A program made the position numbers and the translations under genes. This document shows, in pieces, positions 31,813 through 36,377 of a DNA stretch of 43,880 bases. Below the pieces are notes generated by a model. The model worked only from the letters and a program-made list of their open reading frames with translations. It was not told the DNA's origin and did not search any database. Each line of letters opens with the position of its first letter. Position 1 is the first letter of the stretch. Source of the stretch: an uncultured Mycoplasmatota bacterium (GTDB taxonomy: Bacteria; Bacillota_I; Bacilli_A; RF39; UBA660); contig CAMLTY010000005.1 in assembly GCA_946486465.1 (NCBI GenBank), forward strand, positions 1 through 43,880, in the 5' to 3' direction.

Positions 31813-33735
31813 ATGAAAGAATATGGGTTTGTTAGAGTAGGGGCAATTGTTAATAAGTTAGTACTTGCAAGTCCCGTGGATAATGCTAAAGAGATAGTTA
31901 GGATGATTAGGGAAGCTTATAAGAATAATATTTCTATTGTTACTACTCCTGAACTTGCTCTTACTGGTTATACTTGTGGGGATTTGTTCTTACAAGATGA
32001 ATTGATTGAGAAGAGTGAAGATGCTTTAAGAGTTATTCTTGATGAGACTAAAGATTTAGATATTATTTCTATAATAGGGATGCCTATAAGATGTAATAAT
32101 CAGTTGTTAAACTGTGCAGTTGTTATAGAAAAAGGTAATATTTTGGGGATTGTTCCTAAGACTTATATACCTAATTATAGTGAGTTTTATGAGAAGAGAT
32201 GGTTTACTTCTAGTGTTGATTTAAAGAATAGTGAAGTTAATCTATTAGATAGATTAGTACCTATTTCTACTAAGTTAATATTTAAAGATAAAAAATATAA
32301 GGAAGTATCTTTTGCAATTGAGATATGTGAAGATTTGTGGGCTGTATTTCCTCCTAGTAATAATCATGCTTTAAATGGTGCTTCTATTATCTTTAATTTA
32401 TCTAGTAGTAATGAGATAGTTGGTAAAGATAGTTATAGAAGAAATTTGGTTTCTATAGAGTCTGCTAAAACAATATCAGGCTATATTTATGCAAGTAGTG
32501 GTATTATGGAATCTACTTCTGATTTAGTATTTGGAGGGGCTTCTTTAATCTATGAGAATGGTAAATTATTAAAGTCTAATAAACGCTTTGAAATAGAAAG
32601 TAATTTAATATATGCTGATATTGATGTTAAAAGATTAATTAATGAAAGATGTCGTAATAGTAGTTTTGCAGGAAGCCTTTATGATGGCGATTATAAAGTG
32701 ATAGATGTTAATGTTAGTGATAGGATAAAGAATCTTGATAGGACTTATAAGATGTATTCTTTTATACCTACAACTGATAAAGAGAAAAGGTTTGAAGAGA
32801 TATTAGAAATACAAAGTAGTGCCCTTGCAAGACGTATAATTCACTTAAATAATACTAAATGTGTTATAGCTATGTCTGGAGGACTTGATTCTACTCTTGC
32901 TTTCTTAGTTATAGTTAGGTCTTTTCGTAAACTTGGACTTGATAATAAAAATATTATAGGAGTTACGATGCCAGGATTTGGTACTACAGATAGGACTTAT
33001 TTAAATGCTATTAATTTAGTTAAAGAATATGGGGCGACTTTAAAAGAAGTTAGTATTAAAGAGGCAAGTTTACTTCATATGAAGGATATTGGACTTGATG
33101 AATCTGATAGAAGTGTTACTTATGAGAATATCCAGGCAAGAGAAAGGACCCAAATACTTATGGATATTGCTAATATGGTAGGAGGTATTGTTATTGGAAC
33201 AGGTGATTTATCAGAACTTGCCCTTGGATGGTGTACTTATAATGGAGACCATATGAGTATGTATTCAGTTAATTCATCTATTCCTAAGACTTTAGTAAGA
33301 CATTTAGTAGGTTATGTTAAAGATAATAGCAGTGATGAGAGAAAGAAAATATTAACAGACATCTTAGATACTCCTATATCTCCAGAGTTATTACCTCCTG
33401 ACGAAGCGGGTAATATCTTACAGAAGACAGAGTCTAGTATTGGTCCTTATGTCTTACATGATTTCTTCTTATATCATCTGTTAAGATATGGAGCATCTTT
33501 TAAGAAAATATATTTTCTTGCCAAAATAACTTTTAAAGATAGTTTTGGAAGTTATGAGATTAAAAAGTGGTTAAAAGTTTTTGTAAAGCGTTTTTATACA
33601 CAACAATTTAAAAGAAATGCTGTTCCTGATGGTGTTAAAGTTGGTACTATTAGTTTATCTCCTCGAGGAGATTTAAGGATGCCTAGTGAAGCTAGTTATG
33701 AGAGGATATTAGAAGAGTTAGATAAAATTTCTTAA
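31813..33735 (+). CDS. nadE: Glutamine-dependent NAD synthetase
   Basis: 640 residues in two domains. The N-terminal nitrilase-type glutaminase has the Glu47 (PELALTGY), Lys116 (VPKTYIP), Cys172 (EICEDLW) triad. The C-terminal synthetase has the P-loop SGGLDS (355-360) and TGDLSELALGW. It converts nicotinate adenine dinucleotide to NAD using ammonia made from glutamine. GAAAGGGAG precedes the ATG. No nicotinate-mononucleotide adenylyltransferase (nadD) is in the operon, so that step must be encoded elsewhere. A dispersed repeat abuts the stop codon. Confidence 0.95.
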   Translation: MKEYGFVRVGAIVNKLVLASPVDNAKEIVRMIREAYKNNISIVTTPELALTGYTCGDLFLQDELIEKSEDALRVILDETKDLDIISIIGMPIRCNNQLLNCAVVIEKGNILGIVPKTYIPNYSEFYEKRWFTSSVDLKNSEVNLLDRLVPISTKLIFKDKKYKEVSFAIEICEDLWAVFPPSNNHALNGASIIFNLSSSNEIVGKDSYRRNLVSIESAKTISGYIYASSGIMESTSDLVFGGASLIYENGKLLKSNKRFEIESNLIYADIDVKRLINERCRNSSFAGSLYDGDYKVIDVNVSDRIKNLDRTYKMYSFIPTTDKEKRFEEILEIQSSALARRIIHLNNTKCVIAMSGGLDSTLAFLVIVRSFRKLGLDNKNIIGVTMPGFGTTDRTYLNAINLVKEYGATLKEVSIKEASLLHMKDIGLDESDRSVTYENIQARERTQILMDIANMVGGIVIGTGDLSELALGWCTYNGDHMSMYSVNSSIPKTLVRHLVGYVKDNSSDERKKILTDILDTPISPELLPPDEAGNILQKTESSIGPYVLHDFFLYHLLRYGASFKKIYFLAKITFKDSFGSYEIKKWLKVFVKRFYTQQFKRNAVPDGVKVGTISLSPRGDLRMPSEASYERILEELDKIS

Positions 33736-33752
33736 AAAAGTATGAATTTTGT

Positions 33753-33781
33753 AAATTGACCTCCATTTTAGGGGTCAATTT
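33753..33781 (+). terminator. Hairpin in repeat copy A, likely nadE terminator part 1
   Basis: A 9-bp perfect stem (33753-33761 with 33773-33781) extended by two G-C pairs. The following T run is short. This hairpin is missing from copy B. Confidence 0.5.
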
Positions 33782-33793
33782 TGCATTTTCCCT

Positions 33794-33825
33794 AGGCGAA
33801 TTTAATAAATTCAGCCTCTTTTTTT
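33794..33825 (+). terminator. Second hairpin in repeat copy A with T run
   Basis: AGGC/GCCT clamp (33794-33797 with 33814-33817), one bulged A, then a 6-bp AT stem and a run of seven T. It probably ends the NAD operon. Confidence 0.65.
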
Positions 33826-33926
33826 ATTGAATTTTCAAAATCATCTTTTTGCATTAATTTCTTCCATATGTTAGTGTACTTACCACATACATGTATGAAA
33901 CCAATTTTAGAAAGTGAGGTAAATTA

Positions 33927-34772
33927 ATGGAAAATAATGAAAATGATAACTTTGTAAGCCTTTTAGCAGACAGTACCTTTAAGTATATGTTTAAAGATTA
34001 TAGAGATTTTTTTAAAAAGGTAATTAAATCAACAACTAATGTCGATATAAGTGAATATGAACTTTATAATAATGAGATAAATAGTGGAAATATTGCAAGA
34101 GATTATAGACTAGATATACTACTAAAGAAAGATAATGATTTTATTATAATAGAAATGAATAAAAATGCTGATAAAAGGACTTTATTAAAAGCTAGGAAGT
34201 ATCTATATGCTAAAGCACAGGACGGAGGACTAGTAGAAGGAGAAGAATTTAAAAAGATGAGAACTATTCTTATTAACTTTAATAATTCTAAATATAAGAA
34301 CGATAAAGAAACGATTAGTGTTGGATATGATTTAATAAATGAAAAATATAATGATGTTATAGATGAAATAAAAATTTATGACATATATCTTGCAAGTCTT
34401 AAAAATGTTCGTTATAATGGTAGTAACGAGAAAGAAACATATTTAGCAATGTTTAGAGCAGAGTCATTTGAAGAGATGAGAGATATTGCTAATGGTAATG
34501 AGGAGGCTTTGAAAGTAGTGGAAGAACTAGAAAGATTAAGTGAAAATGATGAGTTTAGAGTCCTTTATGATGCTGAGAAAATGAGAAGAAAAGAAATAAA
34601 CTCTGCAAGACTTGATGGCTATGATGATGGTTTTGAAAATGGAATTATTAAAGGAAAAGAAGAAGAAAAAATAGAAATTGCTAAGAATCTCATTAAAAAG
34701 GGAGTATCTTTCGAAATAGTATCCGAAAGTACCGGATTAAGTATTGGAGAACTAGAAGAACTAAATAAATAA
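33927..34772 (+). CDS. Rpn-like PD-(D/E)XK nuclease / putative transposase
   Basis: 281 residues. The N-terminal part has DSTFKYMFKDYRDFF, and the core is DYRLDILLKKDNDF followed by IIIEMNKN, the Asp ... Glu-x-Asn/Gln pattern of the Rpn/YhgA-type PD-(D/E)XK family. Members promote recombination or act as anti-phage or mobile nucleases, and the exact role here is unknown. The C-terminal third is helical and charged, ending with a GLSIGELEELNK tail that may be a small HTH-like module. A near-identical copy of the C-terminal part lies downstream. A 12-bp palindrome (33886-33897) is in its upstream region. GTGAGG lies before the ATG. Confidence 0.82.
   Translation: MENNENDNFVSLLADSTFKYMFKDYRDFFKKVIKSTTNVDISEYELYNNEINSGNIARDYRLDILLKKDNDFIIIEMNKNADKRTLLKARKYLYAKAQDGGLVEGEEFKKMRTILINFNNSKYKNDKETISVGYDLINEKYNDVIDEIKIYDIYLASLKNVRYNGSNEKETYLAMFRAESFEEMRDIANGNEEALKVVEELERLSENDEFRVLYDAEKMRRKEINSARLDGYDDGFENGIIKGKEEEKIEIAKNLIKKGVSFEIVSESTGLSIGELEELNK
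34386..34663 (+). repeat. Direct repeat unit 1 (inside the Rpn-like gene)
   Basis: 278 bases nearly identical to 34854-35131, offset 468, with about three mismatches by eye. It covers the coding region for residues about 154-246. Confidence 0.9.
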
Positions 34773-34797
34773 GCAAAAATAATAACTACTTATAACT

Positions 34798-34830
34798 AAA
34801 GAAAGAAATGTGATTATTTCTTTCTTTTTA
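34798..34830 (+). terminator. Intrinsic terminator after the Rpn-like gene
   Basis: A 12-bp AT-rich stem (34798-34809 with 34816-34827) and T run. It lies between the complete gene and its truncated copy. Confidence 0.75.
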
Positions 34831-34850
34831 TGATTATAGTAAATTAAAAG

Positions 34851-35252
34851 ATGTATCTTGCAAGTCTTAAAAATGTTCGTTATAATGGTAGTAACGAAAA
34901 AGAAACATATTTAGCAATGTTTAGAGCAGAGTCATTTGAAGAGATGAGAGATATTGCTAATGGTAATGAGGAGGCTTTGAAAGTAGTGGAAGAACTAGAA
35001 AGATTAAGTGAAAATGATGAGTTTAGAGTCCTTTATGATGCTGAGAAAATGAGAAGAAAAGAGATAAACTCTGCAAGACTTGATGGCTATGATGATGGTT
35101 TTGAAAATGGAATTACTAAAGGAAAAGAAGAGGTTGCTAAGGCAAAAGAAATAGAAATTGCAAACAATCTTCTTAATATAGGTACACCTAAAGAAGATAT
35201 AATAAAAGTTACTGGTTTAAGTGTAGAAGCACTAGAGAACTTAACTGACTAA
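34851..35252 (+). pseudogene. Truncated Rpn-like gene copy with alternative C-terminal tail
   Basis: An open frame of 133 residues that begins inside the repeat region, without the nuclease core and without a Shine-Dalgarno before ATG 34851. Residues 2-94 are almost identical to the C-terminal part of the preceding gene. The tail then diverges (VAKAKEIEIANNLLNIGTPK ... GLSVEALENLTD versus KIEIAKNLIKKGVSFEIVSE ... GLSIGELEELNK). The upstream terminator and the missing ribosome binding site suggest it is not expressed. The tail stays open, so it could act as a reservoir for tail exchange by recombination. An alternative is simple decay after tandem duplication. Confidence 0.7.
34854..35131 (+). 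repeat. Direct repeat unit 2 (inside the truncated copy)
   Basis: Partner of 34386-34663. Identity stops abruptly on both sides, which suggests a recent duplication. Confidence 0.9.
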
Positions 35253-35259
35253 ATATTAC

Positions 35260-35290
35260 AAAACTGATAGATACATTTTATCAGTTTTTT
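35260..35290 (+). terminator. Intrinsic terminator after the truncated copy
   Basis: A 10-bp stem (35260-35269 with 35279-35288) with a T run. A TATAAT box at 35315-35320, downstream, is probably the -10 of the rlmN operon, although no good -35 is placed at 17 bases. Confidence 0.75.
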
Positions 35291-35357
35291 GATGTATTTC
35301 TTTAACTTTTACTGTATAATATATGTAGTAACAAAGGAGTATAACCGGAGGTGAGTT

Positions 35358-36377
35358 ATGAGTATATATGATTTAACTATAGATGAATTAACAGAATACT
35401 TTCTAAAAATAGGTGAGAAAAAATATTATGCTAAAGAACTTTTCTCTTGGCTTTATAATAAGAGAATTACTTCTTTTAGTGATGCAACTAATATAAAGAA
35501 AGAGACAAGAGAAAGACTAAGTAAAGACTTTACTATTTCTAATATAGAGATAGTTACAGTAGAAAAAGCTAAAGACGTTAGAAAGTACTTATTTAAACTT
35601 AGAGATGGTGAACATATTGAAGCCGTACTTATGAACCATGATTATGGCAATAGTCTTTGTATATCTAGTCAAGTAGGATGTAATATGGGCTGTAAGTTTT
35701 GTGAATCAGGTAGACGTAAGAAAGTCCGTAATTTAGCTACTGGAGAGATGGTAGAACAAATACTTAAAGTAGAAAATGAGTCTGACCTTAGAATTAGTCA
35801 TGTTGTTATTATGGGAATAGGAGAGCCTTTTGATAATTATGATAACATTTGTAACTTTATAAGAATTATAAATCATCTTAAAGGACTTAATATAGGAGCA
35901 AGACATATAACTGTATCAACTTGTGGACTTGTTCCTAAAATACTAGAATTTAGTGAGTTTCCTTATCAAGTAAATCTTGCGATTAGTCTACATGCTCCTA
36001 ATGATAAACTAAGAGGTGAAATAATGCCTATCGCTAAAGCTTATCCTTTAAAAGATTTGATAAATGCTATTAAAATATATTTAGAGAAGACTAATAGAAG
36101 AGTAACCTTTGAATATATAATGTTAGCTGGAGTTAACGATAGTGTTGATAATGCTTTAGAACTTGTTCATTTACTTAAAGGAATAAACTGCTATGTTAAT
36201 TTAATACCATATAATGAAACAGAAGCTTTACAGTATAAACGAAGTAACCCTTTAACAATTGCCAAGTTTTATGATATACTAAAGAAAAACAATATTACAG
36301 TTACAATTAGGCGAGAATTTGGTGGTACTATTAGTGCTGCTTGTGGACAGCTTAGAAGTAAGAAGGAGGAAATATGA
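35358..36377 (+). CDS. rlmN: Dual-specificity 23S rRNA/tRNA adenine-C2 methyltransferase RlmN
   Basis: 339 residues. The radical-SAM cluster motif is CNMGCKFC (Cys108, Cys112, Cys115), and the C-terminal methyl-carrier Cys329 lies in SAACGQL. GARHITVSTCGLVPKI and NLAISLHAPND are typical of RlmN rather than Cfr. It methylates A2503 of 23S rRNA, and in some bacteria also A37 of tRNA. First gene of the conserved rlmN-prpC-prkC-rsgA-rpe operon. GGAGGTGA lies before the ATG. It overlaps prpC by four bases. Confidence 0.95.
   Translation: MSIYDLTIDELTEYFLKIGEKKYYAKELFSWLYNKRITSFSDATNIKKETRERLSKDFTISNIEIVTVEKAKDVRKYLFKLRDGEHIEAVLMNHDYGNSLCISSQVGCNMGCKFCESGRRKKVRNLATGEMVEQILKVENESDLRISHVVIMGIGEPFDNYDNICNFIRIINHLKGLNIGARHITVSTCGLVPKILEFSEFPYQVNLAISLHAPNDKLRGEIMPIAKAYPLKDLINAIKIYLEKTNRRVTFEYIMLAGVNDSVDNALELVHLLKGINCYVNLIPYNETEALQYKRSNPLTIAKFYDILKKNNITVTIRREFGGTISAACGQLRSKKEEI

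Follow-up and report, generated by a model that had tools for sequence, protein, structure and literature searches.

The window analysed here is the whole stretch of 43,880 nucleotides of one contig from a gut bacterium, whose genome assembly is fragmented (109 contigs) and 86.9% complete. It contains a full-length gene of the Rpn nucleases, which are toxic, virus-fighting proteins, and directly behind it a second, separate copy of the C-terminal part of that gene. Both lie between two genes that we take to be a nadE-like NAD synthetase gene and an rlmN-like radical SAM gene. The features of the locus, all on the forward strand, are as follows.

31813-33735, forward: upstream neighbour, presumably an NAD synthetase (nadE)-like gene
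33736-33926, forward: leader of the rpn unit with a stem-loop at 33753-33781, common to rpn units elsewhere
33927-34772, forward: rpnL, full-length Rpn nuclease gene of 281 aa (TIGR01784), with D63, E76 and N78 at the expected active-site places
34386-34663, forward: first copy of the repeat, the constant stretch of the C-terminal domain (repeat comparison)
34390-34418, forward: intragenic promoter-like site TTGCAA-N17-TATAAT in the full gene (sequence motif, weakly supported)
34500-34520, forward: Shine-Dalgarno sequence GAGGAGG (34500-34506) and GTG start (34518) of a putative nested RpnS of 84 aa, ending at 34772
34689-34730, forward: variable tail module of the full gene, LIKKGVSFEIVSES (codon-window comparison)
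34798-34827, forward: terminator-like hairpin after the full gene, poor in G+C (z -4.87)
34851-35252, forward: stand-alone rpnS ORF, 133 aa from ATG and 88 aa from the likely start GTG 34986
34854-35131, forward: second copy of the repeat, again the constant stretch of the C-terminal domain (repeat comparison)
34858-34886, forward: promoter-like site TTGCAA-N17-TATAAT of the stand-alone copy (sequence motif, weakly supported)
34968-34988, forward: Shine-Dalgarno sequence GAGGAGG (34968-34974) and GTG start (34986) of the putative stand-alone RpnS
35169-35210, forward: variable tail module of the stand-alone copy, LLNIGTPKEDIIKV (module comparison)
35255-35293, forward: terminator-like hairpin after the stand-alone copy, kept beside rlmN in relatives (z -4.85)
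35358-36377, forward: downstream neighbour, presumably an rlmN-like radical SAM gene, used as synteny anchor

The 281-aa ORF matched the Rpn family model TIGR01784 with an E-value of 3.9e-18 (66.2 bits against a cut-off of 52.1). Its D63 and E76 were invariant in 21 aligned relatives, and the third active-site residue was Asn78. In the available part of the report on E. coli RpnA, the PD-(D/E)XK active-site residues are D63, E82 and Q84 (PMC5350276), and the third residue is therefore Asn in the window protein whereas it is Gln in E. coli. A Pfam search gave no match for either the full gene or the stand-alone copy, and a PADLOC search offered no useful family for either. The full-length protein had no phmmer match among PDB sequences, although a profile of the tail did (see below). 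The tail at 34656-34760 (residues 244-278) also matched the Wolbachia Wmk family model NF047948 in its helix-turn-helix region, with an E-value of 3e-7 and far under the cut-off of that model.

The two copies form a direct repeat (34368-34663 and 34836-35131, spacing 468), of which the stretches 34386-34663 and 34854-35131 comprise 278 nt with three mismatches, at 34430, 34595 and 34648; the longest exact run between mismatches is 164 nt. An earlier note on this DNA had described a near-identical 278-base direct repeat carrying an alternative Rpn tail and a truncated copy that preserves an open frame, and both descriptions were confirmed. The separate C-domain ORF begins 78 nt past the stop of the full gene and stays open for 133 aa, and beyond 34663 and 35131 the copies diverge into different tails, so that the last ~40 codons differ. 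The spacing between the motifs INSAR and IEIA is 20 residues in the full gene versus 24 in the stand-alone copy, i.e. one extra unit of four residues, and tail length varies by units of four residues in alignments of relatives as well. Because related genes of other species also match the constant part of the window gene at 95-98% identity, the near-identity of the repeat does not by itself date the duplication, and a very recent duplication read from it was dropped.

The stand-alone ORF matched TIGR01784 at model positions 176-272. A tail profile built from 33 RpnS regions and headed by the stand-alone copy of the window hit the crystal structure of E. coli RpnA-S (7TH0) with an E-value of 1.5e-5, the entry 8vd6 ('CAP repeat') scoring better in the same search. 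For a predicted model of the tail, 7TH0 was the top fold match (probability 1.00, TM 0.85 by target length, Foldseek E 0.061), in agreement with the three-helix fold of RpnS, with a pLDDT of only 65.7 for the model itself. Since profile and predicted fold both match RpnA-S, the stand-alone tail is an RpnS. DUF4351 (PF14261) had no match in the stand-alone copy at E-values up to 1; this annotation of stand-alone rpnS is reported for some species and is no requirement in the available part of the published description (PMC10327210).

According to that part of the work of Zhong et al. (2023, PMC10327210), on which the following statements about E. coli rest, Rpn proteins are toxic nucleases; translation from an internal start additionally yields their variable C-terminal region, RpnS, which inhibits the full-length protein. 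Inhibition is specific, each RpnS acting against its own RpnL, with the tail serving as both antitoxin and dimerisation/oligomerisation domain, and one added four-residue repeat destroys the pairing. Separate rpnS genes are known downstream of full ones, ypaA after rpnE and, in some strains, another after rpnC; RpnE_S is produced from ypaA, and separate copies have been lost by deletion or by fusion with the N-terminal part of rpn (PMC10327210). Thus stand-alone rpnS copies and fusions are already published for E. coli. The pairs rpnE-ypaA and rpnC-rpnC_S have the layout of the window, in which a C-domain gene of its own stands behind a full rpn gene that contains a nested RpnS. They also resemble this genus in the fusion or loss of the separate gene and in the four-residue tail repeats; in the strains compared below, the two tails of K-12 differ and those of fused strains are of the ypaA kind. 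The window copy is longer than the E. coli stand-alone rpnS, as it includes the promoter-like site and ends in its own hairpin, and another hairpin separates it from the full gene.

We examined the internal start signals in 56 of the 60 full-length genes of the genus, leaving aside one core-deleted gene and three of a distant subfamily. The Shine-Dalgarno codons (AAGGAG or GAGGAG) were found in 54 of 56 genes, compared with 18 of 550 other Lys/Glu-Glu pairs of the same genes. The start position was GTG in 49 genes, ATG in five, TTG in one and TAT in one, while GTG occupied 41 of 588 other valine codons. These genes are related, so that the counts are not independent trials; after an 80% identity cut, ten lineages were left, nine of which kept the Shine-Dalgarno codons, and the contrast with control codons is very large despite kinship. 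Judged from these codons, the full gene carries the signature of an internal translation start for RpnS, which would then be expressed from within rpnL. In other genomes, short stand-alone tails have their beginning a little upstream of this Shine-Dalgarno sequence, and in some of them ATG replaces GTG. The leucine codon that forms the -35 element was CTT in 50 of 55 genes versus 342 of 1435 elsewhere; gene by gene, the promoter-like site lay within synonymous shuffles (P from 0.04 to 0.99), and the intragenic promoter was set aside as main evidence.

The stand-alone copy of the window starts directly before the promoter-like site and ends in a strong hairpin, and thus it appears to have what a small gene requires. 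The earlier note had held that it lacks a ribosome binding site, which is wrong, as GAGGAGG and GTG 34986 lie within the repeat, and that it lacks transcription after the terminator, which found no support given the promoter-like site and the hairpin. We therefore read 33927-34772 as an Rpn toxin-antitoxin gene and 34851-35252 as a displaced stand-alone rpnS that could be made as an 88-aa RpnS, and give this reading a probability of roughly 0.7. The view of the earlier note, that the copy is a silent cassette kept for donating tails and makes no product, seems unlikely to us. The reassortment of tail modules and a fusion with a downstream tail, both described below, agree with it. On the other hand, the start signals are conserved on the copy and recur, some with ATG, on other stand-alone tails, which a silent donor would not need; dN/dS values are below 1, and the E. 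coli counterpart RpnE_S is produced (PMC10327210, available part).

For stand-alone tails that occupy corresponding places in different species, five pairs gave dN/dS values of 0.34, 0.55, 0.18 and 0.19, with one pair unchanged (pooled 0.36), and the window copy compared with the C-domain of G008:C6 gave 0.22. These ratios suggest that stand-alone tails are under purifying selection, which gene conversion from full genes could mimic. They bear on another unlikely reading, namely that the copy is a functionless 3' end of a displaced gene on its way to being lost. Scars and damaged tails do occur in the genus, such as a locus that keeps only the last tail bases (G010:C17), a tail with a frameshift (G010:C60) and a tail that has lost its module (G021:C63), but the open frame and the ratios of 0.22 and 0.36 speak against decay of the window copy, with the same caution about gene conversion. 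A tail-only ORF lay within 200 nt of 16 of 55 full genes (55 of 59 had at least 350 nt of downstream sequence), which implies that a stand-alone tail is not essential.

The proposed displacement of the stand-alone rpnS can be followed at the rlmN locus. A genus-wide search of 35 genomes, whose records include Candidatus Onthousia excrementipullorum (Bacilli), found a match to Rpn in 31 and rlmN in 33. The rlmN locus was compared in 31 of the 32 other rlmN-bearing genomes (G031 excluded). The rpn tail match ended 95-101 nt before rlmN in eight of the 31 loci and, by the same measure, 109 nt before it in the window; the remaining loci had tails slightly further off, other contents or none. In G022:C16 the order is nadE, one rpn, rlmN. 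The DNA of G008:C6, with one rpn and rlmN, corresponds to 33705-34696 of the window at 83% and then runs unbroken into 34851-35400 at 89%; its rpn is a chimera within the core and so gives just an approximate picture of the former resident. G010:C17 has the nadE end fused to what is position 35224 in the window (L078 3588-3764 against window 33601-33725 and 35224-35291), the scar of an rpn gene lost from between nadE and rlmN. The full gene and its leader resemble rpn units at other loci, the common part beginning right after the preceding gene; in the window the leader starts directly after the nadE stop and is 98% identical to G029:C29 and 94-96% to three others. From these comparisons, the stand-alone copy is probably the displaced 3' end of an rpn gene that once stood beside rlmN, and the full gene arrived before it. 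We also observed the ~190-nt leader with its stem-loop as a common part of rpn units at different loci (window 33736-33926; L050, L051, L052 and L080), and it may mark the rpn unit that moves.

It is very improbable that the arrangement is an artefact in which a short-read assembler joined an rpn gene from elsewhere to the rlmN-side tail. Many contigs of these genomes do end in rpn tails, and the exact run of 164 nt is of a kind to favour such a join; against it, a full gene with a stand-alone tail is present at other loci of other genomes, the order nadE-rpn-rlmN recurs in G022, and the same layout is found in E. coli, where the rpnE/ypaA layouts were observed in complete genomes.

A second locus has alike flanks in eight genomes. 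At this locus G007, G014 and G028 lack a stand-alone tail, whereas G022, G021 and G033 have a single one and G030 has two; the full gene of G033 holds stops, and the locus of G034 is cut by the contig end. Over 250 nt the G007 gene agrees at 100% with the full gene of G022; from the Shine-Dalgarno region into the flank it then follows the stand-alone tails of G022 and G030 (88-100% in 50-nt windows). In E. coli K-12, rpnE carries one tail and ypaA another. The rpnE locus was a single place in 25 of 60 records taken evenly from 5371 matching records. Four single-place strains have one rpnE each, with a tail of the ypaA type (identical over aligned bases in QML220614 152/153, PI6 151/153, W 151/153 and 19AR0646 131/139), and in both two-copy strains compared, BHUCD02 and MS1494, the full gene keeps the rpnE tail. 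The product that the earlier note had predicted from recombination between the repeats, a core joined to the downstream tail with the intervening segment lost, is thus seen between species at the second locus and between E. coli strains at rpnE, i.e. at another locus and in another organism than the window.

Tail exchange was studied in 54 full-length genes (1431 pairs); from the set of 60, one core-deleted gene, three of the distant subfamily, one cut by a contig end and one without a proper tail were excluded. The pairs are not independent, and the genes are a subset of the matches listed. In 14-codon windows over codons 6-229 (those comparable in numbers), the rank correlation with core identity was 0.55-0.93, and 0-7% of close pairs (cores at least 90% identical) fell under 75% identity. 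For the module at codons 250-263, the correlation with the core was 0.28 and 71% of 154 close pairs were under 75%, whereas 3.1% of 905 distant pairs (cores below 55%) were at least 92% identical, versus 0-0.6% in other windows. By this comparison, the tail module of 14 codons varies independently of the remaining gene across the 54 genes. An earlier pair comparison had given 116 of 184 close-core pairs with diverged tails, a count that includes pairs with L150, the ORF without a proper tail that was excluded from the 54-gene test.

Single cases agree with the uncoupling. The DNA of the 42-nt module in the stand-alone copy recurs unchanged in a G001 gene with a core 44% identical to the window core, and also in a stand-alone tail of G029; window-type cores with the tail type of the stand-alone copy occur at another locus in G029 and G008. 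No pair of genes with cores below 75% had whole tails at least 93% identical in DNA, so that the exchange units are short or were reshuffled later. The claim that tails are modules exchanged by recombination is therefore supported by the uncoupling and by a module common to unrelated cores, and the comparison of homologues suggested in the earlier note yielded neither a uniform arrangement nor tails without module-like variation. In these related bacteria, the sequences support swapping of tails between rpn genes by recombination. Tail modules common to unrelated cores are not described for E. coli rpn in the available part of PMC10327210, and searches of the open-licence literature yielded no account of a tail module with sharp boundaries that is reassorted among unrelated Rpn cores of a genus.

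Furuta and Kobayashi reportedly described mobile recognition domains of restriction enzymes in 2012. Rpn tails are like them in that a specificity module is exchanged between otherwise unrelated genes; the restriction-enzyme module reads DNA, whereas the Rpn module most likely sets toxin-antitoxin pairing. If the likeness went further, the tail would set the DNA target preference of the nuclease and a swap would change what is cut, a reading that we regard as quite improbable. Such a preference was suggested for the variable tail by Kingston et al. (PMC5350276, available part), and the tail of the window resembles helix-turn-helix domains. Yet the tail is published, in the part of Zhong et al. 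available, as an antitoxin and dimerisation domain with RpnS specific to its own RpnL (PMC10327210). Despite the suggestion of Kingston et al., the proposal of the earlier note that the C-terminus decides nuclease target specificity is thus probably wrong. From its idea of a tail-exchange cassette, the exchange itself and the fused tails hold.

Another evolutionary parallel is found in rhs genes. In the accessible parts of the reports, the rhs core and its variable C-terminus are uncoupled and displaced tails lie behind the main gene (Jackson et al., 2009, PMC2935791), and an orphan tail becomes fused to the main gene when the two recombine (Koskiniemi et al., 2014, PMC3967940), as in rpn. By sequence comparison, the rpn pattern, with an uncoupled C-terminus and displaced tips downstream, appears to work like that of Rhs/CdiA. 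In Rhs, the tails act as toxins that are deployed, and immunity comes from a gene of its own, whereas the Rpn tail is an intracellular antitoxin nested in the toxin gene; membership of the window gene in the Rhs/CdiA polymorphic toxins, which have a large deployed core protein with a C-terminal toxin, was rejected, as the 281-aa protein has the Rpn family model.

For a toxin-antitoxin gene followed by a displaced rpnS, we propose the following mechanism. RpnL nuclease would be made from 33927-34772 and its antitoxin RpnS from the internal start at 34518; since both have one common tail, they should always match. The C-domain of a former rpn gene between nadE and rlmN would have stayed when another rpn unit, with leader, core, other tail and hairpin, came in before it. 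Because this remaining copy has kept a promoter-like site, Shine-Dalgarno sequence, start and hairpin, it could yield an 88-aa RpnS with a different tail identity. With one extra four-residue unit and other final helices it would be non-cognate to its neighbour, which it should silence poorly if the extra repeat unit acts as in the published experiment (PMC10327210, available part). It should rather pair with and silence RpnL proteins of its own tail type, and would be both an orphan antitoxin and a source of tails for exchange. The active gene could gain the spare tail if the two constant parts recombine, and toxin and antitoxin would then change together, as RpnS is nested in rpnL. In this simple model, an overlapping toxin-antitoxin pair would change its specificity in one step and the match would never be lost. 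Displacement history, expression, binding and non-cognate pairing of the stand-alone copy are what we infer from the comparisons above.

A broader and speculative idea, which we think rather doubtful, is that the Rpn tails of the whole genus make up one pool of identity modules that can replace each other, in which a displaced RpnS retains the previous identity and so protects the cell against RpnL of the old type or from outside, during and after a switch. As a single stretch of DNA encodes both the toxin tail and the antitoxin, one recombination event would change the pairing identity of both at once, and the nuclease could switch identity quickly, for instance to escape RpnS mimics made by phages. 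None was found: no relatives of the stand-alone tail were detected among 17 candidate stretches in viral_contigs, nor any phage-carried tail in 50,697 phage records, searches in which a distant phage RpnS would be missed since single-sequence queries were used.

Several minor observations concern rearrangement around rpn genes. In G008, the rpn gene beside rlmN is preceded by a sigma-factor-like gene and not by nadE (flanks of L050, L065 and L080 against 31813-33735), and in G029 and G001 a window-type rpn gene stands behind the same sigma-factor-like gene; rpn repeats may be breakpoints of rearrangements. The first 1020 of the 2800 bases of the sigma-factor flank that precedes window-type rpn in G029 and G001 were found in G000, near a contig end, so that a further rpn copy there is possible. 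In many genomes of the genus, contigs break off within rpn genes or their tails (L050, L058, L065, L066, L074, L077, L084, L087, L093 and L094), and therefore the counts of rpn arrays are probably too low and the arrays contribute to the fragmentation of the assemblies. Near rlmN in G027:C29 (L091), an rpn gene has its nuclease core deleted, with the gene start joined to the C-domain. In four rpn copies of G030, G021 and G013 (L086 4706-5102, L141 1976-2390, L142 1969-2383 and L143 2004-2406), one and the same frame change separates a nuclease ORF from a C-domain ORF; it lies at codon ~156, which is where the stand-alone copy of the window begins.
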